Shown here piece after piece: positions 6,882-30,173 of a stretch of DNA of 31,498 bases. How positions within the stretch are numbered: the stretch's first letter is position 1; every line of letters starts with the position of its first letter. Below the pieces are notes generated by a model. The model was not told where the DNA came from. It saw only the letters and a list, made by a program, of their open reading frames with translations, and did no database searches. The stretch is from IMG/VR virus record IMGVR_UViG_3300020084_001471, positions 1-31,498 of that record, one strand, 5' to 3'. The stretch is from a virus. Position numbers and translations under genes: made by a program.

Positions 6882-6883
6882 CA

Positions 6884-14861: not shown

Positions 14862-14912
14862 ATGGATAGCTATGGTCTGACTGCTGGCCGGTGGTCGGAC
14901 CAATCGGGATAG
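14862..14912 (+). CDS. Possible 16-residue leader peptide
   Basis: A very strong ribosome binding site (AGAGGGGGAA) lies just upstream of the ATG at 14862, but the frame closes after MDSYGLTAGRWSDQSG. Its TAG stop (14910-14912) is inside the left arm of the hairpin at 14906-14947. A short, well-initiated ORF ending inside a hairpin recalls translation-controlled attenuation, or it may be the remnant of a longer gene. It sits in the 128-base gap between the capsid and fibre genes. Confidence 0.3.
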   Translation: MDSYGLTAGRWSDQSG

Positions 14913-14947
14913 CGGCTGAGTGCCGTGAGGTGTTCGGTCGCTATCCC
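14906..14947 (+). other. Intergenic hairpin after the major capsid gene
   Basis: GGGATAGCG (14906-14914) and CGCTATCCC (14939-14947) pair perfectly over 9 bp with a 24-base loop. No T-run follows, so it is more likely an mRNA stability or attenuation element than an intrinsic terminator. It separates the highly expressed capsid gene from the exported-protein block. Confidence 0.4.
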
Positions 14948-14973
14948 ACAATTTCAGCGATGGGTGATGAGCG

Positions 14974-16626
14974 ATGAAGGGCAAGAAAAAGATCGGATTA
15001 TGGATTCTCGCGCTGCTTATGAGTTTGCCGTCAATGGCGGCGGCGCAATGGCCCGGCGATTTGGTTTGGAATGTGCCGACAGATAACGTCGGAACATCCG
15101 TTCCTGCCCTTCTTTCCATGCGCGTTGCCGTAGGCGAGCAGCGCCGTTTTCGTGCGCGACTGACTTATGGCGGGCAAGTCGTCAATAGCGCAAGTTTTGA
15201 CCTGTATCAATTCATGTCGAAGGACGTGAAAGGGTACACAGTTTCTACGCTCACGATGACACCGGAAGCGCCGACAACCGGCGGGTGGGTTGTTTGCACT
15301 TTCACGAATCAGTCGCTTCCGGCGAATGCCTACTACGGCGCAATCGTGGCGACCAGCACAACGGCGAATCTGAAATTGATCGCCGGATGGTGGAAGATTT
15401 CCTTGACGGGTTTATTGCCGACAACGGCCCTGGGCGCAGGAACACACGATGAAGTTATCGTCACGACGCTGACCGCAACGAATATACGTACGCAGACGTT
15501 GTACTCGCCGGATTTGCAAACAAGTTTCACCAATACGGCAAAGACGAATGCCGCTAATGATTGGCGTGGATATGCGCAAACGAATTTTGGGAATATGACA
15601 GGAACGGGAACGTTGACCATCGCGGGGAATGTGGGGATTGGTGACACATCGCCACAAAGCCTGTTCAGTGTTGGCAATGGCGATAAGTTCACCGTTAACG
15701 CCAGCGGTGAAACCTCGACAGCGGCGACTGCGATGTATCTGAATAAGAGCGGCCCCGACGCTGATCAATCTATCTATTTCTACGAAGGCGGGTCGCCAAC
15801 GGGCGCTCGCTTTGGGTGGAACAACACGCCAGGGAGATATACCATGATTGGCGGCGGGCTGCAGGTAAATGGCCTCGGCACGACCGATGGCTGGGGAACA
15901 ACCATAACGGCGGGCGCTGCGACCAAGGCAGTGCGCGGCCTGGTCATTCTAACGAGCGGAACGACAGGGAAGGTTGATCGCGCTCTCGACGTTTCGGGCA
16001 CGACTGGCTTCACGTCGAGCGATCACCTGATCTATGCCAAATCGAATGCTTACCTGACGGGCGATGGAGATTGGATTGGCCGGAATATGACTGGACTTGA
16101 GGGCGTTTCGGCAGGGACGTATTGGCCCTATAGCGGTAACTGGAGAGTTGCGTTATGGACTGCCAGTGATAGATTTACGTTCTTGGGCCGCCCGACGACT
16201 GGAGCTCCGGTCGTGACCACGGGTTCGGCAGTTGGAGAGTGGAGCATGTCTCGGCTTTCCACACGCTCTCAATTTGTGTCCGATACATCCTATTCAATTC
16301 GCGCCTCGGTCGAGCGGCGATCCCAGACGTTGCTGACAACCGGAACGAGCGCTGTGGATTTCGTGATGCCTGATATGGCGACCCTCTGGTCGCGCAACCA
16401 CGAAACAACCGGTACGATTTGTTCTGAGTTCACGTTAGTTAATGCCTCGAACCAGACTTGCAGGGTTGAGGCTTCGATTCCAAAGATGACGACATTCTGG
16501 CTTGCGGGAACGACATATACTGAGCTAGTATTGAATGCCGGTGCAACAGTAACGCTTATGCAATCTCCGCGTCCGGCGTGGCAATGGATTGTCAAGTCCC
16601 GCGACGGGACGGTGACAGGGATATAG
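14974..16626 (+). CDS. Fibre-like structural protein with Sec signal peptide (long paralogue)
   Basis: A 550-residue protein with a textbook signal peptide: basic n-region MKGKKK, hydrophobic core IGLWILALLMSLPSM and AAA before Q at about residue 25. The mature part has a beta-sandwich-like N-terminal domain. A fibre shaft follows with GNVGIGDTSPQSLFSVGNGD, a motif common in trimeric tail fibres. The C-terminal region ends with repeated Thr-Gly-rich strands. Residues about 317-476 are encoded by a 482-bp segment identical to one in the 17172 gene. An earlier segment (15496-15618) is also nearly identical to 17373-17495. Position after the capsid gene suggests a head fibre or capsid appendage, but a signal peptide on a virion protein is unusual. 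No enzymatic motif is seen. Confidence 0.7.
   Translation: MKGKKKIGLWILALLMSLPSMAAAQWPGDLVWNVPTDNVGTSVPALLSMRVAVGEQRRFRARLTYGGQVVNSASFDLYQFMSKDVKGYTVSTLTMTPEAPTTGGWVVCTFTNQSLPANAYYGAIVATSTTANLKLIAGWWKISLTGLLPTTALGAGTHDEVIVTTLTATNIRTQTLYSPDLQTSFTNTAKTNAANDWRGYAQTNFGNMTGTGTLTIAGNVGIGDTSPQSLFSVGNGDKFTVNASGETSTAATAMYLNKSGPDADQSIYFYEGGSPTGARFGWNNTPGRYTMIGGGLQVNGLGTTDGWGTTITAGAATKAVRGLVILTSGTTGKVDRALDVSGTTGFTSSDHLIYAKSNAYLTGDGDWIGRNMTGLEGVSAGTYWPYSGNWRVALWTASDRFTFLGRPTTGAPVVTTGSAVGEWSMSRLSTRSQFVSDTSYSIRASVERRSQTLLTTGTSAVDFVMPDMATLWSRNHETTGTICSEFTLVNASNQTCRVEASIPKMTTFWLAGTTYTELVLNAGATVTLMQSPRPAWQWIVKSRDGTVTGI
15922..16403 (+). repeat. 482-bp direct repeat, copy 1
   Basis: This matches 17568-18049 base for base on reading both copies side by side. 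Sequence on both sides diverges at once (cgaaacaacc against cgagactact on the right). A perfectly conserved core with diverged flanks indicates recent gene conversion or cassette transfer between the two fibre genes. Confidence 0.9.
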
Positions 16627-16652
16627 GCGAATGAACCGATAGGAGACAACCG

Positions 16653-17162
16653 ATGAAACGAACGATGCTCTACACAATTGCTTTCTTCTTGCTGCTAGGA
16701 ACTTTTTTGGCGCTTGCAGAAACGATAGGGACGGTCACTACGACGCGCATCTGGCGTCAGAGTGAAAATGTGGATGCTACGTTGCGACCTTACGTTGATC
16801 CGCTGCGAGGCGTTGAAGAGACGGTTAAGCGCCTGGACATACGGGCGACGGTTTCAGCAGCAGGTGTAACCAGTGCTACCATACGAAATCTTGCGGGATC
16901 GAGAGACCTTCTCTTTGTGACGCAGCTCTTGGCGGTTGCAACTAGCGGCACAGCAGCTAACACAGGTTACGTGAACTGGGACTTGCAGATATTGGATAGC
17001 GCAGGTCTGGATTTGCTGAAGGGGTACGGGGCTGACCGTAGCAATAGCGCTATCGAAGGGATCAATTTCGTCACGCCTGCTTCCGTAGTCGGCCCGATGC
17101 GAGTTTATATCACAAGCTCAACGCAAGGTTCAATCTATCCCATAACGATTCTGTATCGCTAG
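16653..17162 (+). CDS. Small exported protein between the two fibre paralogues
   Basis: A 169-residue product preceded by AGGAGAC. The N-terminus is a clear signal peptide: MKR, hydrophobic TMLYTIAFFLLLGTFLALA, then cleavage after ALA before ETIG. The mature 145 residues are predicted beta-rich, with alternating hydrophobic strands (RDLLFVTQLLAVATSG, YVNWDLQILDSAGLDLL) and an ending SSTQGSIYPITILYR. This resembles a small jelly-roll or capsid/fibre-decorating fold, but I do not recognise a family. It may be a partner or cap of the flanking fibre proteins. Confidence 0.7.
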   Translation: MKRTMLYTIAFFLLLGTFLALAETIGTVTTTRIWRQSENVDATLRPYVDPLRGVEETVKRLDIRATVSAAGVTSATIRNLAGSRDLLFVTQLLAVATSGTAANTGYVNWDLQILDSAGLDLLKGYGADRSNSAIEGINFVTPASVVGPMRVYITSSTQGSIYPITILYR

Positions 17163-17171
17163 GAGTTTCCA

Positions 17172-18266
17172 ATGCGACGCATGACTTGTCTGATTCTGAT
17201 CGCGCTGGTTTGTATCATATCCCTTGCAGCGGTCTGGGTTGATGTGCCGCCGCCGGTCACACAGGATGATTTGCTCAACTACACGCGCCGCGATGGTTCT
17301 GCGCTGCCGACAGGGAATTGGTCATTTGTGGGTCGGGACTTGCTGAACGTTGGAAATCTGAAAACGACAGGGACGTTGTACTCGCCGGATTTGCAAACCA
17401 GTTTCACCAATACGGCAAAGACGAATGCCGCCAACGATTGGCACGGATACGCGCAGACGAATTTTGGGAATATGACAGGAACGGGAACGTTGACCGTCAG
17501 AAGCTTGCAAGTAAATGGGCTAAATACCACTGATGGCTGGGGAACAACGATAACGGCTGGGGCTGCAACCAAGGCAGTGCGCGGCCTGGTCATTCTAACG
17601 AGCGGAACGACAGGGAAGGTTGATCGCGCTCTCGACGTTTCGGGCACGACTGGCTTCACGTCGAGCGATCACCTGATCTATGCCAAATCGAATGCTTACC
17701 TGACGGGCGATGGAGATTGGATTGGCCGGAATATGACTGGACTTGAGGGCGTTTCGGCAGGGACGTATTGGCCCTATAGCGGTAACTGGAGAGTTGCGTT
17801 ATGGACTGCCAGTGATAGATTTACGTTCTTGGGCCGCCCGACGACTGGAGCTCCGGTCGTGACCACGGGTTCGGCAGTTGGAGAGTGGAGCATGTCTCGG
17901 CTTTCCACACGCTCTCAATTTGTGTCCGATACATCCTATTCAATTCGCGCCTCGGTCGAGCGGCGATCCCAGACGTTGCTGACAACCGGAACGAGCGCTG
18001 TGGATTTCGTGATGCCTGATATGGCGACCCTCTGGTCGCGCAACCACGAGACTACTGGCACAGTATGCGCCGAATTCACGATAAGCAATCAAAGCGATCA
18101 GACGAATCGGATAGAGGCCGGCGCGTCTGCAAGATTTCGGATGGCGGGAACGAACTACACCGAATTGGTCTTGAATGCAGGTGCAACAGTGACGCTTATG
18201 CAAGCGCCGCGTCCGGCATGGCAATGGATTGTCAAGTTCCGCGATGGGACGGTGAGTGGACAATAA
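17172..18266 (+). CDS. Fibre-like structural protein, short paralogue with signal peptide
   Basis: A 364-residue paralogue of the 14974 gene, preceded by an AGGAG site (TAGGAGTTTCCA). The N-terminus is hydrophobic (MRRMT, then CLILIALVCIISLAAVW), consistent with a signal peptide or anchor; no proper lipobox is present. It lacks the N-terminal beta-domain and part of the VGIG shaft of the long copy. It keeps the SPDLQTSFTNTAKTNAAND segment and the 482-bp identical block (residues about 133-292). The C-termini align but differ: CSEFTLVNASNQTCRVEAS in the long form against CAEFTISNQSDQTNRIEAG here. Two versions of the same fibre with different tips suggest alternative receptor binding or hetero-oligomers. 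Confidence 0.7.
   Translation: MRRMTCLILIALVCIISLAAVWVDVPPPVTQDDLLNYTRRDGSALPTGNWSFVGRDLLNVGNLKTTGTLYSPDLQTSFTNTAKTNAANDWHGYAQTNFGNMTGTGTLTVRSLQVNGLNTTDGWGTTITAGAATKAVRGLVILTSGTTGKVDRALDVSGTTGFTSSDHLIYAKSNAYLTGDGDWIGRNMTGLEGVSAGTYWPYSGNWRVALWTASDRFTFLGRPTTGAPVVTTGSAVGEWSMSRLSTRSQFVSDTSYSIRASVERRSQTLLTTGTSAVDFVMPDMATLWSRNHETTGTVCAEFTISNQSDQTNRIEAGASARFRMAGTNYTELVLNAGATVTLMQAPRPAWQWIVKFRDGTVSGQ
17568..18049 (+). repeat. 482-bp direct repeat, copy 2
   Basis: The second copy of 15922-16403, inside the short fibre paralogue. Same orientation and reading frame; the centre-to-centre distance is about 1.65 kb. Homologous recombination between the copies would delete the 16653 gene and fuse the N-terminus of the long fibre to the tip of the short one. 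Confidence 0.9.
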
Positions 18267-18281
18267 AGGGGGTAGAAAACG

Positions 18282-18755
18282 ATGACACGCTTTTGGAAAA
18301 GGATCGTCTTGGCTGTAGCCGTATTGCTCAGCCCTCTGAATCGGTCTTTCGCGCAGCCGCCACTCGGTACAGCGCCGACGAAGTTGACAGGCGATACGAC
18401 TGAGACGATTCAGATCATGCAAGGGATCGTAAATGCCGCTGCGCACGTGTGGCGATGGGACGCCCAGGGATGCACGTCTTTCACGATTTCCGTGATCAAC
18501 GCCTCTGGTGCAAGCGAGATGGTGAAGCGGCAGCAATCGCAGCTTGTGGCGATGAACAGTGGTGGGCCAGCAAGGTTGTGGGTTTTGGCAAACACAGCGT
18601 TGAAGCGTCTGTTCATTCGCGCTGCGGCTGATGCCGTTGACGATGAGGGCTTGCGGATAATTGCCCAGGGGCAGAACTTGCGCAATTGGGCGAGGGCGAT
18701 AAAAAACGCGGCGACAACGGCGAGCTTGGTTGTGGCTACTCCAACTAATGATTGA
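18282..18755 (+). CDS. Exported protein of unknown function, 157 residues
   Basis: Preceded by AAAGGGGGTAG. The N-terminus is a standard signal peptide: MTRFWKR, hydrophobic IVLAVAVLLSPL, then NRSFA before QPP. The mature part is a mixed fold with SFTISVINASGASEMVKRQQ and KRLFIRAAADAVDDEG, probably a small beta-sandwich, and ends close to the stop with TASLVVATPTND. I recognise no family. It is the fourth gene with a signal peptide in the block after the capsid gene and is followed within 20 bases by a holin-like gene. Confidence 0.68.
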   Translation: MTRFWKRIVLAVAVLLSPLNRSFAQPPLGTAPTKLTGDTTETIQIMQGIVNAAAHVWRWDAQGCTSFTISVINASGASEMVKRQQSQLVAMNSGGPARLWVLANTALKRLFIRAAADAVDDEGLRIIAQGQNLRNWARAIKNAATTASLVVATPTND

Positions 18756-18773
18756 TTGCATGGTGCTCAGAGA

Positions 18774-19046
18774 ATGAATGAGACAACACAGCTCAGGTTG
18801 ACGGAAATCGAATCTGAACTTCGCAGACAATCGCTTAACGACCATGATTTATTGATACGGCTGAATACACGGCTCGATATGTTGTGGGAGATGACCGAAG
18901 GTTTGCCATTGCGACTTGTGGCGGTTGAATCCGAAATCGGCGCGATTCGCCGGAATGCGCAACGAACGGCGGCAATAGCAGGAACTGTCTTGGCCGCCTT
19001 GGTAAGTGCGGCTGTGAATTTCGGAAAGAAACTTTTTGGGGATTGA
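18774..19046 (+). CDS. Holin-like coiled-coil membrane protein (XhlA-like architecture)
   Basis: A 90-residue protein from the ATG at 18774; the frame extends to a TTG at 18756 without support. Residues about 3-55 form a coiled coil (LRLTEIESELRRQ, then LVAVESEIGAIRRN). One hydrophobic helix follows (RTAAIAGTVLAALVSAAVNF, residues about 64-83) and a basic tail, KKLFGD. This is the layout of XhlA-type lysis-associated proteins and other one-helix phage holins or spanin partners. No endolysin is adjacent in this window, so a membrane anchor or export helper for the preceding signal-peptide proteins is an alternative. Confidence 0.55.
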   Translation: MNETTQLRLTEIESELRRQSLNDHDLLIRLNTRLDMLWEMTEGLPLRLVAVESEIGAIRRNAQRTAAIAGTVLAALVSAAVNFGKKLFGD

Positions 19047-19049
19047 CAC

Positions 19050-19424
19050 GTGGCTTTGACAATCGTTCAACAAATCCGCTTCCTCATGGGCGATAAAGAT
19101 GCTAACGCTGACGGCACCGGCGACATATATGGCGTGATGGATGAGGAGATCAATTTCTCCTACGAGGAAAGTGAAAGCATATATCTGGCCGCTGCAACGT
19201 GCTTGCGGGCCGCAGCATCGAAATTGGCGGCATCGGAACTTTCACAGAGCGCCGCAACTTGGAGCAAGGACACGCGGGGGCGCGTGGCCGCAATGAATGC
19301 TTTGGCCGACAAACTTGAGGCTACCGCGCCGAGTGAACCCTATGGCGTCGGCGCTGAAATCGCTTTGACCGACGCGGCTGAGGCGCAGATTCTCGAAAAC
19401 AAGGCGACGCGAGAGAGCGCATAA
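19050..19424 (+). CDS. Head-tail connector protein (gp6-like, probable)
   Basis: A 124-residue protein with a GTG start at 19050, 4 bases after the previous stop; GGGG lies upstream. It is helical, with the pattern seen in phage adaptor proteins that bind under the portal. The N-terminus VQQIRFLMGDKDANADG is followed by a helix ESESIYLAAATCLRAAASKL and a C-terminal alanine/glutamate-rich helix. Position after the head genes and before a joining protein fits the adaptor. The family assignment is by architecture and order rather than by a diagnostic motif. Confidence 0.65.
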   Translation: MALTIVQQIRFLMGDKDANADGTGDIYGVMDEEINFSYEESESIYLAAATCLRAAASKLAASELSQSAATWSKDTRGRVAAMNALADKLEATAPSEPYGVGAEIALTDAAEAQILENKATRESA

Positions 19425-19820
19425 ATGGCCTATAGGTGCGACGGTGATCTATTGCGGTTGATGCAGGAGCATGGCCAGACAATCAGGTTGCATGGCTTGA
19501 GCCGCGCCGATGATGACCTGGGCGGCAAGGAGCGGACGCTAGAGGAGGGGCCGACGGTCGTATGTTTCACCCGTCCACTGAGCGCCGAAGAAATTGATTG
19601 GCACGAGCGCCATGATACGCGAGCAGACCTCATGGTCTATCTGCCGCTCACAGATAGCGACGGCAACTTGCTTTCGTTAGCGCTCGACGGCATGGCGGAG
19701 ATTATGACACCTGATTCAATCGCCGGATACTACTCTATCGTCGGGCTAATAAACGCCTTGCCTGTCGAATCGAGTGATGGCAACGGCGAGCATCTTGAGA
19801 TGTTGATACGGAAGGCGTGA
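19425..19820 (+). CDS. Head closure / head-tail joining protein (probable)
   Basis: A 131-residue protein starting immediately after the previous TAA (TAAATG). It is beta-rich, with a middle segment FTRPLSAEEIDWHERHDTRA and a domain-end DGMAEIMTPDSIAGYYSIVG. The second reads like the 'a specV.v dgv.y.I...' strands of phage stopper proteins. Stoppers plug the connector after packaging and receive the tail. It is assigned from order (adaptor, stopper, gp10-like) and secondary-structure pattern. Confidence 0.55.
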   Translation: MAYRCDGDLLRLMQEHGQTIRLHGLSRADDDLGGKERTLEEGPTVVCFTRPLSAEEIDWHERHDTRADLMVYLPLTDSDGNLLSLALDGMAEIMTPDSIAGYYSIVGLINALPVESSDGNGEHLEMLIRKA

Positions 19821-19824
19821 GAGT

Positions 19825-20310
19825 ATGGCGGCGACACTCAGTCCGGGTTTCGGGGTGCATACGAACGAGAATTTGCGGCTGCGTGCTTTGCGGCAATGTG
19901 AAGGCGCGCTCTTGTCTGCAATCAGAGATGCCGCAGCGCGGCTTGAGGATATCGTAGTAACTAGCATGAAGCGAGCGCCGTTGCGATATAGGCTGGCACG
20001 AGGCTTGACCTTGGTGAGCTCTCGTTCCCGAAAACGAAAGGGGTTTGGGAAGCCGCAGTTTGTTGCCTCCGCGCCCTACACGCCGCCGCATTCGCGCAGA
20101 CCAATGGAAGGATTGCGGGCGAACATAGACCACGAAGTTGATCGAGCGACGCTGCGAGCAAGAATAGGATCGAATGTGATTTATGACCGCGCTTTGGAGC
20201 TTGGTTATTCACCTCGAAACCTATTGCCACGTCCGCACTACATGCCCGCGCTCCGTCAACTCCTGGGCGAGTTTGAAACCATTCTTGGCCGCTACAGGAT
20301 AATGACCTAA
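19825..20310 (+). CDS. HK97 gp10-like tail completion protein
   Basis: A 161-residue protein. The middle and C-terminus carry the gp10-like signature: ASAPYTPPHSRRPMEGLRAN (after a basic loop), ARIGSNVIYDRALELGY, and finally PRPHYMPALRQLL. In known phages this family helps join or complete the tail at its upper end. The basic loop SRSRKRKGFGK around residues 65-75 is longer than usual. The stop overlaps the next start as TAATG (20308-20312). Confidence 0.82.
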   Translation: MAATLSPGFGVHTNENLRLRALRQCEGALLSAIRDAAARLEDIVVTSMKRAPLRYRLARGLTLVSSRSRKRKGFGKPQFVASAPYTPPHSRRPMEGLRANIDHEVDRATLRARIGSNVIYDRALELGYSPRNLLPRPHYMPALRQLLGEFETILGRYRIMT

Positions 20311-20852
20311 TGCAATGGCTGATCGAAAGCATCATGGCAAAGATCAAGGCGGCAGATGATTTCTGCGCGTGGCTCGGCACAGATAAGGACGGGCAAGTCC
20401 GTTTCTATCTCGGCAAGGCCGTTGCCATAGAAAACCTTTCAACCGATTCAAAGACTCTCGGCACGGCGGCAAACCCGCTTCGCTATGCAGTTTTCACAAT
20501 CGCGCCGCGCAGCGGCGAGAACCTGAGATTCATGGATGGTTCTGAGACTCGCAACTATACGATGACTGTCCATTTCTTCGAGCGCAGCACTACATCGGTT
20601 CTGCCATGCGTCGAGGGTGAACGGCTCTTTGCAGCGATTTGGCAACTGCCCGCATCTGGCCAAATTGACGGCCTTTCGACAGCCGAGCCGAAGTGGTCAT
20701 TTCATTCATTACATGTCATGGCCGACTCAGACCCGACTTCACCCGAACCGACTGTCGAGGGTTTGTGGATGATGCAGAGAGACTTCAAAATCAGATTGAG
20801 CGCAACGCCTGTGCCGACGCCGACACCGACGCCGACACCAACGCCACCTTAG
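20310..20852 (+). CDS. Tail terminator-like protein with Pro-Thr tail
   Basis: A 180-residue protein at the tail-terminator position, between the gp10-like protein and the tail tube. The core is mixed alpha/beta, with LRYAVFTIAPRSGENLRF and MTVHFFERSTTSVLPCVEGE (the second resembling an edge strand of the terminator fold). It then ends in an unusual 15-residue extension of alternating Pro and Thr (PVPTPTPTPTPTPP). That extension is encoded by a near-perfect hexanucleotide repeat at about 20809-20849. Similar Pro-Thr ends occur on the next gene and on the 1261-residue adhesin. The start overlaps the previous stop (TAATG). Confidence 0.6.
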   Translation: MQWLIESIMAKIKAADDFCAWLGTDKDGQVRFYLGKAVAIENLSTDSKTLGTAANPLRYAVFTIAPRSGENLRFMDGSETRNYTMTVHFFERSTTSVLPCVEGERLFAAIWQLPASGQIDGLSTAEPKWSFHSLHVMADSDPTSPEPTVEGLWMMQRDFKIRLSATPVPTPTPTPTPTPP

Positions 20853-20868
20853 AAAGGGGTGAACGAGA

Positions 20869-21273
20869 ATGGCGAAATACAGTGGAGTAGCTGGCACTAT
20901 CAGTCTGTTGCATGGCGAGGATGAGCTTGGTGGGAACTGTTATCTCTGGGAAGTTGCCGCTGCTGCGGATTTGCGGCCCGCGGGAACTTTCGGCGACGGT
21001 GGCTATCGTTCGACCGTAAAGGGCGAGCAGTCATGGGACTTGACCGCTACATGCATGGCCGATGCAACTGATGCCGATTTCATAGAAGGCGATCTCTACG
21101 TGGTAGACGCGACAGATGACGCGGCGGGGAAACGAATAGCAGGTTCATTTCGGCTACAATCTACCCGGCACACGACCGATAGGCGGGGAGATGCAATGAC
21201 TGTTGCCACGCTATTGAGCGAAGGGAAAATCATCATTGAGCCAGTGGCGACGCCGACACCAACGCCTCCGTAA
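20869..21273 (+). CDS. Tail tube protein (probable) with short Pro-Thr tail
   Basis: A 134-residue protein with a strong AAAGGGGTGA ribosome binding site, as expected for an abundant product. It is beta-rich: GTISLLHGEDELGGNCYLWE, later GEQSWDLTATCMADATDADF and KRIAGSFRLQSTRHTTDRRG. The W-D-L-T-x-T-C-M-A-D pattern is typical of the tail tube beta-sandwich. It sits immediately before the frameshifted chaperone genes, the normal tail-tube position. It ends EPVATPTPTPP, a shorter version of the Pro-Thr tail of the preceding gene. No tail sheath gene accompanies it, which supports a non-contractile tail. Confidence 0.75.
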   Translation: MAKYSGVAGTISLLHGEDELGGNCYLWEVAAAADLRPAGTFGDGGYRSTVKGEQSWDLTATCMADATDADFIEGDLYVVDATDDAAGKRIAGSFRLQSTRHTTDRRGDAMTVATLLSEGKIIIEPVATPTPTPP

Positions 21274-21285
21274 AGGAGCAAGTGA

Positions 21286-21786
21286 ATGGCAGACGAACCT
21301 GTGATTCTTCTCGACTCCGAGGGTAAGCAGCTTAAGGCCAAACTTTTCGGATTGGCCGAGGCGCGAGAACTACGGCGCTGGGTCATGCAGGAACGCTACC
21401 AGGTGGCGCTTGAGGCGCTGAAACGGGAAGTGCGACCAGAGAATGTGAGCTGTCCACATTGTCGGCGTTCGTTTGCTTGGCAAGCACGAAATCCGATCAT
21501 GGATGATGACAAGCTTCAGATACTCGCCTCGGCCCTTGCGATCACGCGGAAAGATGAAATCGAAGCTGAGGCGTCAGTCGCGGGAGCGATTCAACAGATT
21601 TTTCTGGCGCTTCGTCATTATGACAAAAATGTGACATGGGAAAAGGCAGCGGAGATTTTTGCCATTCCTGGGAATTTCAATCGGCTTACCGAGGCATCGT
21701 TCCCGCCGACGCGCAAGGGGGATACGAAAGATGACGAAAACCCTACCTCGATTGGTGGGCAGTCGTCGAGCGACAATACCAGCTAG
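21286..21786 (+). CDS. Tail assembly chaperone, short form (gpG-like)
   Basis: A 166-residue protein preceded by AAAGGAG, placed between tail tube and tape measure. It is mainly helical, with an N-terminal AKLFGLAEARELRRWVMQER segment and one CPHC pair around residues 56-59 that may belong to a small zinc site. In siphoviruses this gene gives a major short product and a minor extended product made by -1 frameshifting, and both coat the tape measure during assembly. The slip site AAACCCT at 21738-21744 lies 14 codons before the frame-0 stop and leads into a long open -1 frame. Confidence 0.8.
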   Translation: MADEPVILLDSEGKQLKAKLFGLAEARELRRWVMQERYQVALEALKREVRPENVSCPHCRRSFAWQARNPIMDDDKLQILASALAITRKDEIEAEASVAGAIQQIFLALRHYDKNVTWEKAAEIFAIPGNFNRLTEASFPPTRKGDTKDDENPTSIGGQSSSDNTS

Positions 21787-21956
21787 TCGCGTATCTCTTT
21801 GGCTTGCCTTTGGAAACTGTCGAATGCCTTTCATTCCGGCTCGCGGCAGAACTGCTCGACACGTATTGTTATGCTCGTGACGTGGTTGAGGGACGGGGCG
21901 GCAAAGAAGCCGAGATGATCTATCGGGCGCGGTTGATGAATCTCAGACGGAGATAA
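21286..21956 (+). CDS. Tail assembly chaperone, frameshifted form (gpGT-like)
   Basis: Reading 153 codons of the short form up to CCT (21742-21744), then slipping back one base, continues for 70 codons (YLDWWAVVERQYQLVAYLFG ... RARLMNLRRR) to TAA at 21954-21956. The combined product is 223 residues. The extension is well-composed (LPLETVECLSFRLAAELLDT, helical). It has no start codon of its own near the beginning, only downstream TTGs, and its upstream end is closed by TGA at 21732-21734. Slippage therefore has to occur within the interval that holds AAACCCT. The extension would bind the tape measure while the short form coats it. Confidence 0.8.
21738..21744 (+). promoter_or_regulatory. Programmed -1 ribosomal frameshift site, A AAC CCT
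   Basis: The bases AAACCCT are in the frame-0 phase A-AAC-CCT, which is the canonical X-XXY-YYZ slippery heptamer (X=A, Y=C, Z=T). Both tRNAs can re-pair on AAA and CCC after a -1 slip. A weak stem CTCGA/TCGAG (21747-21751 with 21766-21770) lies just downstream. The spacer is shorter than usual, so its role as stimulator is doubtful. Confidence 0.75.
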
Positions 21957-21960
21957 TGAC

Positions 21961-23691
21961 GTGAAGCTAGCAGAGGCATACGTCGAATTGGTCGGACGCA
22001 TGAACCGGCTTGAGTCTGATTTCAAACGCGCCGGTGCGATGGGAACGGCAGCCGGAAAGCAGGCGGGCGAAGCTTATGGTTCGGCCTTCGAGCAATCTGT
22101 CAAGACTCACGCAGAAAAAGCGAGGCAGGCACTCAACACACCGCTGAGAGACCCTGTGACTGGTCGGATGATTAGCCGAGGTTCTCTGGGGCAATATGGA
22201 AATGCGATGTTGTTTCGAGCGACAAGTCTGCAAGGTGCTACAATCCCTCCCGAATTATTAGGAGCAGGGGTCGGTATGGTAGCTGCGCGAACGGCTAGCA
22301 ATACAGCTATGCAAATAGCTAATAGTACAACAGCGCGAATGGCTAGTGGTGCAGTGGCGGCATCAATGCGTATAGCTACTCCGTTGCTTGGTATTTATGG
22401 TGCTTATCGCATGGGTAAAATGGCTCTAGAAGAATCTATGCAGTCGGAGGAAGCATCGCGTATGTTCGTTGCTGCAATGGGTGCTCAATCTGAAGCTGCC
22501 CAACAATGGGCTGATAGATTAGCACAGACGGTGGCGCGTGAAAACGAGGACATTATGCAGAACGTCGCCGTTTTCAAGCTATTGTTCGATCAATTCGGCA
22601 TCGGCGAAAAAGCTGCTTTAGATATGTCAAAAGGGCTGATCGAACTTCAATACAAGCTTTCTGCGGTTAGCGGAGCTCGCCCAGAAGAAGTTTATGGTGC
22701 ATTGTTGTCGGCTCTAGCGGGACGCGCAAGAGCACTCAGGCAGTTCGGAATTAGGCTTGATGAGACGAATGTAAAAGAGACGGCATATCGGCTTGGTCTT
22801 GCCGCAACCGGAAGCGAGCTAAACGAAACACAGAAAGCCTTAGCTACCTATGCTGCGCTGATGGAACGAAGTACCAAAATAGCTGGCGATCTTAACAAGG
22901 TTCAAGAACTTCTGAGAACTCGCGTTCGCTCTGTTGGTGTTGAATATAGAGAAGCTTTCCGAGCGATAGGTGAAGCAGGAAAACAATCTGGTCTAGTAGA
23001 TGTGGCGCTCAAGATTGCCAAAGTTCCTGCATACGCGATAGGGGCAATGGGACGTGCGTTCACTGGCGCACCCGAAGCGTCTGTGCAAGAGACAGAATAT
23101 GCTCGCAGCCGACTAGCGGCGAAAACCGCAAAGGAAGAAGGACTCGCTTCTTTTTGGCGCCGGGCAGAATTGAATCGTAGGATTGCCGAAGAAGATATTC
23201 GGTCACAGCAAGAGAGAGCAACACAGATAAGTTTTGCTCGCCGCGACGTGCTCAGCAAGTTCCTAGAGACGTTCGCAAAGTACACGCCGGAAAGCGGATG
23301 GTACGACGTGACTCAGCCGATGTTCGTAAACAAGGGACGCGGCATTGGCAGAGATATGGTCAAGTCTGGTCGCTATTGGATCGAAGGGCAAAAAACGCAG
23401 ATCAAGCAGTTCATGGCGGCATACGAACAACTCCAGGAGATGCAGTTTCTCAGCCGCACACTAGGCACAATGGGGATAACAAAAATGCCGTCGTTCCTAT
23501 CCGACATAGCGCAACGTGCGTATGGCACGATGGCTCGCATCGGCCCTCAGTTTCTCGGCGCAGAATGGGGTAGATTTGCAGAACCCCGAAAGACGACAGA
23601 AGAAAAGCAGTTGGAAGAACTGGTCGCGATTCGCAAGAACACCGCGAAGGGCAACACCGCGCAATCAGACCAATATGAGATTGCCGAATAA
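21961..23691 (+). CDS. Tail tape measure protein
   Basis: A 576-residue protein with a GTG start 4 bases after the chaperone stop; GGAG (21949-21952) is 8 bases upstream. The N-terminus KLAEAYVELVGRMNRLESDF is typical of tape measures. A Gly/Ala-rich weakly hydrophobic region follows (GVGMVAARTASNTAMQIANS, IATPLLGIYGAYRMGKMALE), then long helices (QEERATQ-type coiled segments around 400-440). At about 1.5 angstrom per residue it would set a tail near 85 nm. Nucleotides about 22250-22950 look more AT-rich, with different codon choice from the flanks, possibly a recombined segment. It measures tail length and is expelled during DNA injection. Confidence 0.88.
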   Translation: MKLAEAYVELVGRMNRLESDFKRAGAMGTAAGKQAGEAYGSAFEQSVKTHAEKARQALNTPLRDPVTGRMISRGSLGQYGNAMLFRATSLQGATIPPELLGAGVGMVAARTASNTAMQIANSTTARMASGAVAASMRIATPLLGIYGAYRMGKMALEESMQSEEASRMFVAAMGAQSEAAQQWADRLAQTVARENEDIMQNVAVFKLLFDQFGIGEKAALDMSKGLIELQYKLSAVSGARPEEVYGALLSALAGRARALRQFGIRLDETNVKETAYRLGLAATGSELNETQKALATYAALMERSTKIAGDLNKVQELLRTRVRSVGVEYREAFRAIGEAGKQSGLVDVALKIAKVPAYAIGAMGRAFTGAPEASVQETEYARSRLAAKTAKEEGLASFWRRAELNRRIAEEDIRSQQERATQISFARRDVLSKFLETFAKYTPESGWYDVTQPMFVNKGRGIGRDMVKSGRYWIEGQKTQIKQFMAAYEQLQEMQFLSRTLGTMGITKMPSFLSDIAQRAYGTMARIGPQFLGAEWGRFAEPRKTTEEKQLEELVAIRKNTAKGNTAQSDQYEIAE

Positions 23692-24530
23692 TGGCCGTTA
23701 GAGAACTCAGACCACCCGCAAGCCCAGGCCGCCGCCTTTGGTACGACGGTAACTGGCATGGCGAAATACCTTTTGCAGTTATTGACGCCAGTACTAAAAA
23801 TCCCGATGCTTTTTTGACCGAGGTAGTGGCGGCTTTTCCTCTCGGCAAGCCCTGGTCACTGATGCTTCCAGAGCTTCGTGTGATTCAGCTTGATATGGCT
23901 CTTGAGTTGGAAGAGGCGGGGACGAGCAATTGCGAATGGCGCGGGCGAGCGATCTATGGCCCGCCGCAATCTGGCGGCCTCGGCTCGGCAGGAGATGTGA
24001 ATTTTTGGTATGATGCAACGCCTGGAATTGTGACAACGCGAGTTGATAGCGACGGAAATCCTCTTTCCGCCAATATTGAACTACAGATACCGATTGTAAC
24101 CGAGACGTTTTTCTACGAGCGCACAGAAAGCGCCGTCGGATTCTGGGTTGATCGTTCTCTGCGCCATTGGTCTGACGCGCAGCCACGTCACATGTGGGGA
24201 ATGAATAGCGAGGATGACTTTAGCCAACGCACTCGCGTAAATGAGTGCGTTAACCGCACGAATTCCAATTTCTTTCACGGCGAAGGGACGGGTAAATGGC
24301 TCTGTCGCGGCGCAAGTCCGATACGGCAGAACGATCCGTTGATTTTTGAAGGTGTTGAATATGACCGTTGGCTCGTGCGCTATGCCTTCGAGCGGCGGAT
24401 TTTCCTTCAGGGCAATCAACAGCGGCATTGGAAGGAATGGGTTGACGATGAATTGAAAGAGGTTTTTGAGCGCGCCGACTTTGGCCGCTTAGAATTGGTT
24501 TGGCGCAACGGCTCGCCGATAGCTGCTTAA
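23691..24530 (+). CDS. Tail tip protein, distal-tail-like (uncertain)
   Basis: A 279-residue protein whose ATG overlaps the tape-measure TAA (TAATG). In siphoviruses the gene after the tape measure is the distal tail or minor tail protein that starts tail assembly. The product is beta-rich and Trp-rich (FPLGKPWSLMLPELRVIQLD, SAVGFWVDRSLRHWSDAQPR) with a C-terminal helix (KEWVDDELKEVFERADFGRL). No Dit-specific motif can be shown by eye, so the assignment is by position. There are few cysteines and no signal peptide. Confidence 0.6.
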   Translation: MAVRELRPPASPGRRLWYDGNWHGEIPFAVIDASTKNPDAFLTEVVAAFPLGKPWSLMLPELRVIQLDMALELEEAGTSNCEWRGRAIYGPPQSGGLGSAGDVNFWYDATPGIVTTRVDSDGNPLSANIELQIPIVTETFFYERTESAVGFWVDRSLRHWSDAQPRHMWGMNSEDDFSQRTRVNECVNRTNSNFFHGEGTGKWLCRGASPIRQNDPLIFEGVEYDRWLVRYAFERRIFLQGNQQRHWKEWVDDELKEVFERADFGRLELVWRNGSPIAA

Positions 24531-24531
24531 T

Positions 24532-24789
24532 ATGGAATTTGAAAGGTTGCCAGACAAATCACTCGTGAGTGGCCGGGCGGAAAATCGTTTCCGCCGCGCA
24601 ATTGCTCAGGCAATGCCGGTGCGGGTTGCCGGAGCGACAATGGCGCGATTGCCCGGTGGGACCGTCATCGGTTTTCCTGGCACTTTGAGAAGTGGCACAG
24701 GCGGCGGTAGTAGCGATCTAATCGCACACGGCCACACGAGCGACACCGACGGCGGCTATAGCACGGCAGGTTTCACCGACCCCATTTGA
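24532..24789 (+). CDS. Small Gly-rich tail-associated protein, 85 residues
   Basis: The ATG follows the previous stop by one base. A basic N-terminal helix (GRAENRFRRAIAQAMPVRVA) is followed by a glycine-rich, collagen-like or beta-structured segment (PGTLRSGTGGGSSDLIAHGH, then TSDTDGGYSTAGFTDP). The HGHTSDTDGG run resembles the end of short fibre or spike linkers. I do not recognise a family. Location between the distal tail gene and the adhesin suggests a tip adaptor. Confidence 0.55.
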   Translation: MEFERLPDKSLVSGRAENRFRRAIAQAMPVRVAGATMARLPGGTVIGFPGTLRSGTGGGSSDLIAHGHTSDTDGGYSTAGFTDPI

Positions 24790-24807: not shown

Positions 24808-27800
24808 GTGATACACCCCAAAGCATCCTACCTCACGACGATTTTCTCTGAGCTCGCTTCCAAATCAAACGTACCGCGCGATAGCCGTGAGGGAATCGAG
24901 GAACAGACGCTTGCGGTCGGCATGAATGAATACAAACCAGTTTTCACAGACGCCTGTGTGGGTTGCCCCGCCCGCTGGAAAGAGGAAACGGCTCTCGGCC
25001 ATGTTGTGCCAGATAAGATGCAGCAAACAACACAGACGCCGCAAGTGCACTTATTTAGTCGCAACACATTTCGGAAGATGCACAAGCTGATCTGTGAACT
25101 GAACGGAGTAGGTAGCGGTCTCTATGCGCCGGTCGGCGGATTGCCTGCTGGCGGCGCGCCGATCTGGGTGAATGTTTATCTTGTCGGCGTGGATGGTGAA
25201 TGGTTGACGCTCTGCTGCTACTGGGATGGTCAATATCACGATCCGCGAAACATGCTGAATGAATTTGGGCAATCAGTCGGTCCTGTCGCGCCGAACTGGA
25301 CGGCGGGACTGTGCTATGCGGGAACGAATTATGAAGCGAAGGGTCTCTATCTGCTGATTGAGGATGTGCGATTTTGGACGCCTCTTTATGGCGACACGGC
25401 TGCGCCCTATTATGTTTTTCAGATTCGCATCCCTGCCGACATTAGCGACATTCTGACGGGCGTACCTTCTGGCGGCGCGCGGTTCTATACCCCTGGCACG
25501 ACACCCGAGCTTGGCAAGGATATTAACGTCGAGCTTAGCAAACCATATCGCCCGCTCTATACGGCGCTGTTCGAGCACGAACGACTGCCATGTCGAAAAC
25601 GAAAGATCGAGATTCTTGCGCCATTCTCTGAGCTCGACATTCATGGCGGATTGCTGCTCAGCGGCCATGACGGATTGACCGATGGTGTAAGGATTTCCGC
25701 GCCCGTCTCGTGGCATGAGACGCCAACCTACCATGAAACGGGTCGGTGGTATGAAATGGGATATGAGACGAACATTGCAGGCAATCTGAAGGTCGAGCGA
25801 AAAGTTGGCGAGACGTGGGAAGATGTTACCAGTAGCGTGCGGGCGACGGAATATGAAAACATAGAAGGCGTGTACTACGTCAAGAAACATTGGTGGTCAA
25901 GGGTGCAGACCACGAACTCGCCCTACCAGACGAAACTCTATCTGAGAGGTTTCATTCCGACAGCCGAAGGGACTTGGTTTACCCCCGATAGCGATCTCAC
26001 TGAAGGAGCATCGGCGATTCGCATCACTTACTGGCCGGTGCAAGAGGGAGCGCATAGCGGGCGCGTGACGCAGCGCTCGATGCTTTGCGGCAATTGTCGC
26101 CGTGACTATAGCGAATGGATTGGCGCGACGGGAGCGGGCGTGCAAGGTGTCGGAGTTGATCCTGAAGGGCATCATTGGTATTGCGCGGCACGCACGGTTG
26201 CTTCCGGCGTCGCCAATTTCGTTGCGGGTAAATGTCAACTGGCCCGCAACTGCTCCCACTATGACTGGGGCTACCCTGACCTGCCGTCGCCGCAAGTGCT
26301 CGCAGAGATTGATTCCGCCAAGTACTGGGTCACGGTAACGCCATATCCGCCAGGCTCGCCGCAATACTGGGTGCATATCTGCGCGCCTTCGATTATGCTC
26401 CTGCTCGGAGCGCGATATGATTGCGCTGCTGGCAACCATGAATTTGTAGAAACGGCGGGCAATGGATGTCTGGGTAATTGGTTAGAGACGGCGGGCGACG
26501 GCACGATCCAAGGGATTCACAGAGGCGCAATCTATCATATCTGCGGTTCGGGCTGCAACCCCACAGGATATGACGACCATCGCTACGGCTTGTTGATTCT
26601 CAGTGACACGATCTATGCGGACGGATTGCGGCCACACAAGCAATCCGATTTCGTTTTGGAGGATGCCGAGAGCGATCCTGTTCCGGCTCATCGCGCCTAT
26701 TTGCTTCGCCAGTTCATCTCGACATATAAGGGGGTGAAAACTTACGGCGCGCAATGGTATCGGCGGGCGCGGGCGGCATTGGGCTGGCAAGGGGAAAATC
26801 GCGTTAGTCGCGTGCCCGCGCTCGGCAATTTCGTAAAAACCTTCTTTCCGGCGATCAAACCATTTGAGGCCGGAACGACGGAATTCGCCAAGGGGGCGGT
26901 CGAGGTCGGTTCGTGGACGCTCGGCGGTGAAGAATACGGACTCAAAATCACTCGCACGCGCACAAAGCCTCTGCCTTACAAACGCCTCGGCGCCCTCTCT
27001 TGCAATTCCTATGGTGAATCAAAGAACCACACAGGCAGAGTGCTTGTGGTGCTCGGCTACGTGGACGGCCAACTGGGAATTGACTGCTACCCTGGCTGGC
27101 ATCGGCTTTGCATGACTGAACCTGGCGGCGAGACAATCTTGAATTTCAAAGGATCGGGTAACGTTGTAGAGCTGCCTGACGACTTGCGATTGGCTTCACC
27201 GCACGAGCTGAGCTACTGCCGGAAATTCGGCGACGTTCACGACAAAGTCGCAGCGGGCGATACGATAGAGTTCACGACAATCGCAGCGCTTGCAGGTAAG
27301 AAATTCTATGTGCGTTGGGCAAAGCCGAGCTGTGGAACGCAGTTCCTTCCGCCGAGTGCTTACCCCTGGTGGGACTCGCCGCTGGTCATCGGCTGGCCCG
27401 CCGTGAACCATGACTATTTTCTAAACGCCGACCGCCTTGTGATTCAAGATGAACATGACTTGCTCAAGGCAGCGTTTGATGCCGGATTGTTTGCGAATGC
27501 TTATTTTCGCGTGGACACGTCGGGTGTGTGGGCGATGAATAGGCCACTTGAGGCCGCTGTGATGCGAAAACCGATGACGGGGAGGCCGACAAAAGAAGTG
27601 CCAGAGCCGCCGATGATTTCCGTTTCGCCTACGGGCGCTGTGGATTTTGGGTCAGTCCCCATTGGAGGGGCATTGGAGTTGCTTGCGTTCACGGTCAAAA
27701 ACATCGGCGAGCAAACACTGATTGGAACGGCAAGCGTAGCTGCGCCGTTCAGCATAGTTTCGGGCGACTCGTTCAGCTTGGCGAATCAAGAGAGTCAGCA

Positions 27801-28593
27801 GGTTCTCATCCGTTTCGCGCCGACCGCACTTGGAACTTACAGTGAGACTGTCAGCTTCGCAAGCAACGGCGGCAATGTCACACGAACGGTTATCGGCGGA
27901 AGTGAACAGGAATCTTTTCCCGTGCCGACGCCGACGCCGACAGCTACTCCCATTCCAACACCTACACCCGGCAGCCCGCCGCCAATGCCTTTTAACTTTG
28001 AGGCGACTGAAGGTTTTGATTGGATTTTCGGATTCTGGAAAGATTTGGAAGATGCCCCGCTATTTCAAATCTGCGCACAACGAACAGGATTGTTCTTTCC
28101 CGATTATCCAGACGAGGGATCGTTGCCGCCACCGGATTTGGAGCAATTTTCTTTGGCGATGATTACTCCAGGTAAGCCACTTTTTCCTGAACATTGGCCT
28201 ATGCTTGGTTTTTGCCAATGGTGGGAAATTTTGCCTTTCGGATATTTAGCAAAGCTTTCTTGGGATAGCGAATGGGTTTGGTTTCGGATACGGGCGATCA
28301 ATGAATATGGTGCGAGCGATTGGACTGTGCCCGACGCTGGTTACTGGACATATCCTGGATGGCCGACGCCAACACCAACTCCGCCTCCAACTCCTACTCC
28401 AACGCCGCCGCCGCCAACGCCAACTCCAACGCCAACTCCAACGCCAACTCCAACGCCAACTCCAACGCCAACTCCAACGCCAACTCCAACGCCAACACCA
28501 ACACCAACGCCAACTCCAACGCCAACACCAACACCAACGCCGAGCTTTCCGCCACTCACAGGAACTCCGCCACCGCCGACGGGAACAGAGTGA
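24808..28593 (+). CDS. Large tail adhesin / tip protein with ASH-like and Fn3-like domains and Pro-Thr stalks
   Basis: A 1261-residue protein with a GTG start at 24808 (no strong ribosome binding site). The first 930 residues are beta-rich, with Cys-rich patches: CVGC near 51-54, and between about 425 and 590 several pairs such as CGNC, CQLARNC and CGSGC. Residues about 936-1035 form an ASH/choice-of-anchor-D type Ig fold (VDFGSVPIGGALELLAFTVK, later NGGNVTRTVIGG). A short Pro-Thr linker follows (1039-1058), then an Fn3-like domain (about 1060-1180, ending WFRIRAINEYGASDWT). Residues from about 1186 are a long Pro-Thr stalk ending SFPPLTGTPPPPTGTE. By position and domains it is a host-contact protein at the tail tip. 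The gene for a glycosyltransferase fusion starts 11 bases after its stop. Confidence 0.75.
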   Translation: MIHPKASYLTTIFSELASKSNVPRDSREGIEEQTLAVGMNEYKPVFTDACVGCPARWKEETALGHVVPDKMQQTTQTPQVHLFSRNTFRKMHKLICELNGVGSGLYAPVGGLPAGGAPIWVNVYLVGVDGEWLTLCCYWDGQYHDPRNMLNEFGQSVGPVAPNWTAGLCYAGTNYEAKGLYLLIEDVRFWTPLYGDTAAPYYVFQIRIPADISDILTGVPSGGARFYTPGTTPELGKDINVELSKPYRPLYTALFEHERLPCRKRKIEILAPFSELDIHGGLLLSGHDGLTDGVRISAPVSWHETPTYHETGRWYEMGYETNIAGNLKVERKVGETWEDVTSSVRATEYENIEGVYYVKKHWWSRVQTTNSPYQTKLYLRGFIPTAEGTWFTPDSDLTEGASAIRITYWPVQEGAHSGRVTQRSMLCGNCRRDYSEWIGATGAGVQGVGVDPEGHHWYCAARTVASGVANFVAGKCQLARNCSHYDWGYPDLPSPQVLAEIDSAKYWVTVTPYPPGSPQYWVHICAPSIMLLLGARYDCAAGNHEFVETAGNGCLGNWLETAGDGTIQGIHRGAIYHICGSGCNPTGYDDHRYGLLILSDTIYADGLRPHKQSDFVLEDAESDPVPAHRAYLLRQFISTYKGVKTYGAQWYRRARAALGWQGENRVSRVPALGNFVKTFFPAIKPFEAGTTEFAKGAVEVGSWTLGGEEYGLKITRTRTKPLPYKRLGALSCNSYGESKNHTGRVLVVLGYVDGQLGIDCYPGWHRLCMTEPGGETILNFKGSGNVVELPDDLRLASPHELSYCRKFGDVHDKVAAGDTIEFTTIAALAGKKFYVRWAKPSCGTQFLPPSAYPWWDSPLVIGWPAVNHDYFLNADRLVIQDEHDLLKAAFDAGLFANAYFRVDTSGVWAMNRPLEAAVMRKPMTGRPTKEVPEPPMISVSPTGAVDFGSVPIGGALELLAFTVKNIGEQTLIGTASVAAPFSIVSGDSFSLANQESQQVLIRFAPTALGTYSETVSFASNGGNVTRTVIGGSEQESFPVPTPTPTATPIPTPTPGSPPPMPFNFEATEGFDWIFGFWKDLEDAPLFQICAQRTGLFFPDYPDEGSLPPPDLEQFSLAMITPGKPLFPEHWPMLGFCQWWEILPFGYLAKLSWDSEWVWFRIRAINEYGASDWTVPDAGYWTYPGWPTPTPTPPPTPTPTPPPPTPTPTPTPTPTPTPTPTPTPTPTPTPTPTPTPTPTPTPTPTPSFPPLTGTPPPPTGTE
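28363..28541 (+). repeat. Hexanucleotide microsatellite encoding the Pro-Thr stalk
   Basis: About 180 bases built from CCAACG/CCAACT/CCAACA units with some CCGCCG. Because the unit is six bases, gain or loss of units keeps the reading frame and changes stalk length. The +1 frame over the repeat is also open (Ala-Asn-Ser-Asn repeats) and runs into the next gene's frame. A shorter version of the same repeat encodes the tails at about 20809-20849 and 21245-21270. Confidence 0.9.
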
Positions 28594-28604
28594 GGAAAAC
28601 ACTT

Positions 28605-30173
28605 ATGAATACCCGACCAAAAGTATCGGTGTGCATCAACAGCGCAGGGGAAGGTCCTCGTTTGAAAAGCACAATAAGTGAATTCCACAACGCGCTCGGC
28701 GACTATCCACACGAATTCGTCATTGTTGACGACGCCAGTACCGACGGGTCAGCTTCAGAGCTGGGCGAGGAAGTGAGAGTCCTACGGAATGAAACGCGGA
28801 TTGGCTGTGATCGCTCCAAAAATCGAGCGATGTTTGCCGCTCGTGCTGAATGTCTTTGGTTTGCAGACGGCCACCACAACCTTGTATCAGGGAGTGCAAT
28901 CGAGCTGATCGAAAGCGCGATGGATTTGCAGGCGATAGTCTGTCCGATCATTCGCCATATTGCCTACGATCAATTTTGGCAACCTTACGTCCTCAGCGGT
29001 CAATTGTTGATTCCCGATCCTAAAGCGCTCGGACTATACAGTGGTTTCTTTGAATCCGTTCGCGCAGAAAAGCTGACAAACGAAATCATTCCGATAGATG
29101 TCCCCGCGATGACTTTCGTTGTTTCACGTTCCACATTGATCGAGCGTTTAGGCGGAATCAACAACTATGAAGGCGCGTATGGTTCGCAAGAGCGTGGAAT
29201 AGGATTGAGGGCATTCATGGCTGACGTTCCAATTCGAGTTCTTAGCTCGGTTCAGGTCGGCCATGAATTCAACTGCAAAGATTCGCCCTCAAGAAACCAT
29301 TTCCCCTACCGGCCACAAAGCGGAATTAGCGTAGCTAAAAACGCATGGCACGCCTATGCGGTCGTGACGATACCTGAGACGTTTGATCGCTACATTCGCC
29401 CTGCACTCATGTCTGGCCATGGCTGGAGAGCTGGCGCGGGAACCGAACAATCTCTTATAGTCAAGTCCGAACAGGAGCATTTTCACCGGTTCTGCAAGAA
29501 GCGCGCAGACTGGGAGCTGGTCGAAAAAATCGGACTGTATAGGCAAGAGCTGCGGGGACTTCCGCTGAATGACATCGGCGATCATCCTCTTGAACCGCTG
29601 GCCGTTGAGATGGTCGAACGTTATGCGCACGGTCGCGCGCTCGAATTTGGGACAGGTTCGGCAAAGGGCACGAGAGCTCTTCTCACAAAATGCCTTGAGG
29701 TCGTCACGATAGATGACGATCTTTCCTTTGTGACAAAGGCACAAGAGGAATTCAAAAATAAGCGAGTCCATTGTTTGTGCGCCCAACTTGGCGCGGATGG
29801 ATTCTATCAGCTCAGATTGATCGGTCTCTTCGATACTGTCCTGATTGATGGTCCGATCAACTATGGATCAAGGAATGGAGCGCGGAGCAATGCTATGCGC
29901 GCAATCTGGCCGCACGTGAAAATGGGGACAGTGATCTTGGTTGACGACGGCAAACGCGACACGGCAATGGTTGAACAGTGGCTACGCGAATACCCGCTCA
30001 CGGGCGAGCTACTTCCCACGAATCGAGGGATGTGGAAGTTGCTCGTAACCGGCGAGGGCAATGCGGATTTGCGGGAAGAGCTATCAGATTTGGCGAGCAA
30101 CGTCCGATCCTTATCGGAGCTCTTTGATCTTTCGGGCACGCCGCCGCCAGCGGTAGAGATTGCGGAAGATTGA
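28605..30173 (+). CDS. Glycosyltransferase (GT2/GT27-like) fused to a SAM methyltransferase
   Basis: The ATG at 28605 is preferred: GAGG lies 9 bases upstream, and the frame upstream is only the Ala-Asn-Ser-Asn reading of the Pro-Thr repeat. Of 522 residues, 1-225 form a GT-A domain. VSVCINSAGEGPRLK opens it, FVIVDDASTDGS (38-49) is the nucleotide-sugar site, FADGHH (86-91) has D88-x-H90, VCPIIRHIAYDQF is at 112-124, and VGHEF (218-222) holds H220. The DXH plus later VGHxF arrangement resembles the metal ligands of polypeptide GalNAc-transferases rather than the usual DXD of GT2. Residues about 325-500 form a class I methyltransferase: LEFGTGSAKGTRALL (from 346), a following VVTIDDDL and DTVLIDGP (410-417). 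Its neighbours suggest it modifies the Pro-Thr tails, but a role on host surface sugars is possible. Confidence 0.83.
   Translation: MNTRPKVSVCINSAGEGPRLKSTISEFHNALGDYPHEFVIVDDASTDGSASELGEEVRVLRNETRIGCDRSKNRAMFAARAECLWFADGHHNLVSGSAIELIESAMDLQAIVCPIIRHIAYDQFWQPYVLSGQLLIPDPKALGLYSGFFESVRAEKLTNEIIPIDVPAMTFVVSRSTLIERLGGINNYEGAYGSQERGIGLRAFMADVPIRVLSSVQVGHEFNCKDSPSRNHFPYRPQSGISVAKNAWHAYAVVTIPETFDRYIRPALMSGHGWRAGAGTEQSLIVKSEQEHFHRFCKKRADWELVEKIGLYRQELRGLPLNDIGDHPLEPLAVEMVERYAHGRALEFGTGSAKGTRALLTKCLEVVTIDDDLSFVTKAQEEFKNKRVHCLCAQLGADGFYQLRLIGLFDTVLIDGPINYGSRNGARSNAMRAIWPHVKMGTVILVDDGKRDTAMVEQWLREYPLTGELLPTNRGMWKLLVTGEGNADLREELSDLASNVRSLSELFDLSGTPPPAVEIAED

Follow-up and report, generated by a model that had tools for sequence, protein, structure and literature searches.

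A candidate mucin-type O-glycosyltransferase in an uncultivated tailed phage, related to GT27 and encoded next to a Pro-Thr repeat protein

From the analysis of a 31,498-base virus contig (hereafter the window, i.e., the whole stretch of DNA that was analyzed), which its gene content identifies as a fragment of a tailed phage, it appears probable that this phage encodes a metal-dependent GT-A glycosyltransferase (GT), sister to family GT27, that O-glycosylates the phage's own mucin-like Pro-Thr tail-region protein. We build here on the sequence of the enzyme, the family to which it belongs, its predicted fold, an invariant triad of residues, and the linkage of its gene to those of repeat proteins. 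From these observations we infer the protein acceptor, the identity of the sugar donor, the retaining or inverting type of linkage, the location in the virion, and the role of a fused methyltransferase-like domain, with Ser/Thr as the acceptor residue suggested by gene context.

Results

Genomic Context of the GT Gene

The GT gene sits in the virion gene cluster, after the terminase, portal, head, and tail-region genes, and starts at the ATG at 28605, which is preceded by a Shine-Dalgarno-like GTGAGGAA (table 1). A gap of 11 nt separates it from the gene of the Pro-Thr protein, the first 664 aa of which had no match in the phage collection. A DNA-level case for selection on the Pro-Thr tract was considered and found weak, given that the tract consists for the most part of a 12-bp repeat whose copies differ at third codon positions alone. 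Elsewhere in the window, a WD40/beta-propeller repeat protein is encoded at the left end (2-859, minus strand), and two neighboring DNA methyltransferase genes (3792-5093 and 5276-6175, plus strand) precede the terminase gene.

Table 1. Features of the window around and within the GT gene.
Feature	Position	Strand	Basis or remark
Terminase, portal, head, and more late genes, upstream of the GT gene and in the same direction	6884..24789	+	PHROGs
Proposed acceptor: tail-region protein of 1261 aa, with a HYDIN-like Ig domain and a Pro-Thr C-terminus	24808..28593	+	
60-residue tract of Pro and Thr only (residues 1186-1245), mucin-like	28363..28542	+	
Shine-Dalgarno-like GTGAGGAA of the GT gene; overlaps the stop codon of the upstream gene	28590..28597	+	
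GT-methyltransferase fusion gene, 522 aa	28605..30173	+	Translation
GT-A domain (residues 1-300), GalNAc-T-like fold	28605..29504	+	AlphaFold2 model, GALNT2 match
DXH metal motif D88-G89-H90	28866..28874	+	Aligns with DSH of GALNT2; D and H invariant
VCPIIRHIAYDQF segment (residues 112-124)	28938..28976	+	Aligned with VSPIIDVINMDNF of GALNT2
E196, acidic, at the xED (catalytic base) position	29190..29192	+	Aligned with N of GALNT2 WGGEN
VGHEF (residues 218-222), third metal ligand H220	29256..29270	+	Aligns with VGHVF of GALNT2
C-terminal methyltransferase-like domain (EFGTGSAKGTRALL, DTVLIDGP, VILVDDG)	29505..30170	+	Sub-threshold Methyltransf_24

Sequence Family and Motifs of the GT Domain

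The motifs on which the original prediction was founded, namely D88-G89-H90, VCPIIRHIAYDQF, and VGHEF with H220, are all present in the 522-aa translation, in which the DXD motif of chain-elongating GT2 enzymes is absent and DGH stands instead. Pfam assigns residues 8-128 to Glycos_transf_2 (PF00535; E = 1.9e-11, 44.7 bits against a cut-off of 23.3), which is a broad family. When the single GT protein was compared with the PDB by phmmer, GALNT2 was the best match (E = 8e-10), in an alignment that keeps the motifs in register (DGH/DSH, VCPII/VSPII, and VGHEF/VGHVF), and it is because of this match that we consider the likeness of the motifs to go beyond chance. A profile search of the PDB returned GALNT2 (1.1e-38) and GALNT10 (8.6e-38), then chondroitin synthase (1.1e-24) and dolichol phosphate mannose synthase (1.7e-19).

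Only seven columns are invariant across 19 homologous domains (S8, E37, D43, G67, D88, H90, and H220): the DXH pair and the third His are constant, whereas the V-x-P segment is kept only in part among the phage relatives and VGHxF is variable in this alignment beyond its His. A DxH motif in place of DxD is reported to occur only in GT27 and GT60, both of which attach sugars to Ser/Thr residues in polypeptides (PMC7185993). At the xED position, read from the alignments, Glu is found in 17 of the 19 domains and Asp in the other 2, when GALNT2 has Asn; inverting enzymes nearly always retain an acid there (PMC7185993). Since the window GT carries Glu in place of this Asn, its sugar contacts and mechanism may differ from those of GALNT2. 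A C-terminal ricin-type lectin domain is usual, albeit not universal, in GT27, and none was found in the window protein by Pfam.

Predicted Structure of the GT Domain

The AlphaFold2 model of GT residues 1-301, built from the 19-row alignment, reached a pLDDT of 81.4 and a pTM of 0.85, with pLDDT <50 at residues 123-125, 137-144, and 228-235. In a Foldseek search of the PDB, the first 50 rows were all GT27 enzymes, and VIA-align placed 29 GT27 entries on top (Z from 26.8 to 22.5), followed by B4GALNT1 (20.6), GlfT2 (19.9), and K4 chondroitin polymerase (19.2). The match to GALNT2 (Z = 26.8, rmsd 2.8) comprises 263 aligned residues, model residues 2..298 lying on chain residues 133..423, and the fold matches of the model in BFVD were generic GT2s, weaker than the GT27 matches. 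The closest fold is that of GT27, and the adverse outcome envisaged in the original prediction, a clear best match to chain-elongating GT2 enzymes, was not seen, GT27 being best by profile and by fold. Taken together, the sequence alignment and the aligned structure ranges suggest that D88, H90, and H220 form the metal site.

These matches also bear on the idea that the substrate of the GT is DNA or a small molecule, as in base hypermodification. The two DNA methyltransferase genes of this phage would be in line with it, but they are distant and of usual kinds, and the fold and motifs of the GT match peptide-acceptor enzymes, which leaves this idea very improbable.

Relatives and Phylogeny

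Scans with the single GT protein found no close relatives among phages, plasmids, or the contigs of viruses and genomes, a tblastn of the window GT against sequenced phages found none either, and a scan with the single terminase protein found no close relatives. The relatives of the GT surfaced only with an alignment of the GT domain and the matched GALNT2 fragment, which retrieved viral contigs L010, L011, and L012 (27-29% identity over ~230 residues, E down to 2e-22). All three encode GT-methyltransferase fusions of ~500 aa that are laid out like that of the window and have DPH where DXD would stand, the L011 protein being the same as that of L010 and therefore not counted apart. With the later addition of L019-L022, L033, L035, L041, and L066-L068, 12 further phage contigs with DXH GTs are at hand besides the window. 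L010 alone has four such GTs, and L019, L020, and L021 each encode DXH GTs in tandem, with a third in the record, L019 and L021 also encoding a GT-methyltransferase fusion. Among the weak-E plasmid matches, one of the three read carries DXH, a Cytobacillus protein (L014).

Some of these loci are elaborate. Positions 6102-16535 of L010 form a phage glycan cluster with its four DXH GTs (one of them methyltransferase-fused), two Methyltransf_24 genes, and weakly sulfotransferase-like genes, and L021 encodes, at 6531-9950, a 1139-aa protein in which a radical-SAM-like N-terminal part (CNLTCDYC) is fused to two DXH GT domains. Nitrospinota proteins from L002, L006, and L007 show the inverse order, a methyltransferase followed by a DXD GT2.

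In a 43-row tree with long branches and GALNT2 as its only GT27 row, the 28 DXH rows (GALNT2 included) form one group apart from the DXD GT2s (support 81/79). The phage clade, together with the bacterial L052 and Planctomycetota L057/L058, has a support of 99/96, and GALNT2, L054, and L014 fall outside it, with the one GT27 row standing for that family. Because the phage clade lies outside GT27 in this tree and an acidic residue occupies the xED position, we file the window GT family as a putative sister clade of GT27 and not as GT27 proper.

Bacterial DXH Enzymes and the Host

The bacterial DXH GTs of the Cytobacillus plasmid (L014) and of planctomycetes (L052 and L054) share with the window GT the DXH motif and the C-terminal His, and L052 even lies within the phage clade. 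Unlike the window GT, they are apparently cellular genes, with no fused methyltransferase and no repeat neighbor seen, and L014 and L054 have Asp at xED when the window GT has Glu. DXH-type relatives (E <1e-30) occur in 5 of 294 Planctomycetota genomes, DXH having been checked in only part of these five, and one match at 1e-28 was found among 388 genomes from the phylum to which an Opitutae genome belongs; one CAZy GT27 is on record in Singulisphaera (PMC5352709). Relatives of the terminase, with up to 39% identity, are present in 19 of 392 Planctomycetota genomes. As regards the host, these Planctomycetota and Opitutae-phylum matches are a hint only. Downstream of the Planctomycetota terminase relatives, neither the GT nor comparable repeat genes were found in the stretches examined, so that terminase synteny is no guide, and since prophages with related terminases are without both genes in these stretches, the GT and repeat-gene module looks accessory.

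Linkage of DXH GTs to Ser/Thr/Pro-Repeat Proteins

The vicinity of a repeat protein recurs in other uncultivated phages. L010 encodes 670-aa and 1119-aa proteins with long SPSVSPSPS repeats, the latter (2733-6092) ending 9 nt before a DAH GT that starts at 6102; SASPSASLSASPTASP repeats are found in L012; and several genes of L019, L020, and L021 bear Thr/Ser tracts, with an 8-nt overlap between one such L020 gene (5438-7060) and a DXH GT gene. A DSH GT of L033 forms a fusion protein with a Thr-rich region, and L066, L067, and L068 present PPTTA repeats, PPTTTPPPT repeats, and poly-Thr, respectively, when no Ser/Thr/Pro-repeat tract was seen in the stretch examined of L022, L035, and L041. In the Planctomycetota contigs L057 and L058, which were left out of the counts below, a gene with a short poly-Thr tract adjoins a DAH GT (4 nt overlap and 15 nt gap, respectively). 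The poly-Thr gene of these two contigs is short, with a linker and a Cys-rich end, and lies near the same type of peptidase gene in both. They may be prophage remnants. The L020 protein encoded at 5438-7060 additionally contains a carbohydrate-binding domain of sialidase-like type (PF22585, E = 3.5e-8).

As controls, we took 91 phage DXD GT loci with the same upper limit on flank length (mean 15 kb for DXD, 17 kb for DXH). Under a strict criterion (40-aa windows with S+T >=40% and S+T+P+A >=80%), set after L010 and L012 had been seen and before L066-L068, of which one in three passes, Ser/Thr/Pro-repeat ORFs were found in 8 of 13 DXH contigs versus 1 of 91 DXD controls (Fisher, 4e-8). Under a loose one (runs of at least nine S/T/P), introduced on reading L066-L068, all three of which pass, they were found in 7 of 13 versus 5 of 91 (P = 5e-5); contigs being partly non-independent (L020 and L021 come from one metagenome, and L066 and L067 have sister GTs), both P values are only a guide. 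With GT27 enzymes as best PDB matches, an invariant triad, and this linkage, on which the original prediction was silent, the earlier proposal of a GT27 relative possibly glycosylating Ser/Thr of proteins is well supported.

This linkage helps weigh two other readings. The GT might act on surface structures of the host cell (of the O-antigen, capsule, or teichoic acid type), like phage seroconversion or exclusion GTs, with the repeat neighbor a flexible tail linker only. Phage GT2 genes are often so classed, and the PHROG matches of the window GT fall in glycosyltransferase groups listed under moron/AMG, with a GtrB-like trace (E = 0.51); yet the best matches are protein-acceptor GT27 enzymes and not chain-elongating GT2s, the gene lies in a late operon coupled to a repeat protein, and repeat proteins are frequent neighbors of DXH GTs but seldom of DXD GTs, all of which makes a host-surface target unlikely. 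We give a little less credit still to the suggestion that other virion proteins, such as the capsid or tail tube, are glycosylated as in mycobacteriophages, with the mucin-like neighbor incidental. In phage Corndog, an O-methyltransferase and glycosyltransferases are encoded between the portal and protease genes (PMC4351075), and PMC12363180 cites glycosylated capsids and tail tubes, but the recurrent nearness to Ser/Thr/Pro tracts and the L033 fusion are then left unexplained. Against glycosylation of the Pro-Thr protein itself, which we prefer, it should be said that the repeat tracts could be mere flexible linkers.

The Methyltransferase-Like Domain

The fusion to a methyltransferase asserted in the original prediction is borne out as to a C-terminal methyltransferase-like region, but as a weaker call: Methyltransf_24 matches residues 365-448 with E = 6e-4 and 21.0 bits, under the curated cut-off of 26.3, and the predicted structure of the region has a pLDDT of 43. 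The fusions of L010 and L012 carry clear methyltransferases of another Pfam group, Methyltransf_11. The domains thus being of different kinds, their sequences suggest that the pairing of GT and methyltransferase arose repeatedly.

Discussion

With GT27, as represented by human GALNT2, the window GT shares a GT-A fold over the whole catalytic domain, the DXH motif, the third metal His, and the V-x-P segment; it differs by the missing ricin-type lectin domain, by the Glu/Asp at xED, by the fused methyltransferase-like domain, by its presence in a phage, and by its position outside the GT27 branch (one row in our tree). The nearest known case of glycosylated virions is that of the mycobacteriophages Corndog, Che8, and Myrna, whose GTs are likewise phage-encoded and for which the reported targets are the capsid and tail tube (PMC12363180). 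Corndog has its O-methyltransferase and glycosyltransferases within the virion gene cluster as separate genes (PMC4351075), when they form a fusion in the window. The statement that no phage enzyme with this pairing had been described must therefore be narrowed, the pairing being known as separate genes; it holds insofar as neither a DXH enzyme nor a fusion was found reported there. SunS, a peptide S-glycosyltransferase derived from the SPbeta prophage, is likewise a prophage-derived GT2-like peptide enzyme, but its profile match to the window GT is far weaker (E = 7.5e-7). It acts on a bacteriocin cysteine.

On this basis, we propose that the late operon would have the GT made together with the mucin-like Pro-Thr tail-region protein. 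D88, H90, and H220 would hold the metal, the nucleotide sugar would be bound as in GT27, and, while the late genes are expressed, Thr (or Ser) residues of the Pro-Thr tract would most likely receive the sugar, so that the particle may carry an O-glycosylated brush. The fused putative methyltransferase would probably methylate the added sugar or a later one.

Mucin-type O-glycosylation is generally regarded as eukaryotic, and no phage mucin-type system was found in searches of open-access full texts. The recurrence of the GT/repeat-protein pairing in other uncultivated phages suggests that certain phages cover their own virions with sugars of the mucin type. We lean, by a small step beyond even chances, toward an undescribed phage mucin-type system, in which long Ser/Thr/Pro-repeat virion proteins and dedicated, often several, DXH polypeptide GTs would be encoded side by side, accompanied by methyltransferases and, in a single contig, by sulfotransferase-like genes, the whole giving some phages a glycosylated, mucin-like coat; a GT27-type metal site would then occur in a clade of prokaryotic viruses, with an acidic residue still at the position of the catalytic base.

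If true, a system related to mucin-type O-glycosylation would exist in bacterial viruses, in a phage family that shares the metal site and predicted fold of GT27 and is linked to mucin-like repeat proteins, and phage DXH GTs with their repeat proteins would offer simple enzyme/acceptor pairs. It would also bear on the glycan coats of phage particles, with regard to adhesion and protection from proteases, and, since an acidic residue that GALNT2 lacks is retained in the DXH enzymes of bacteria and phages, on the origin of GT27.
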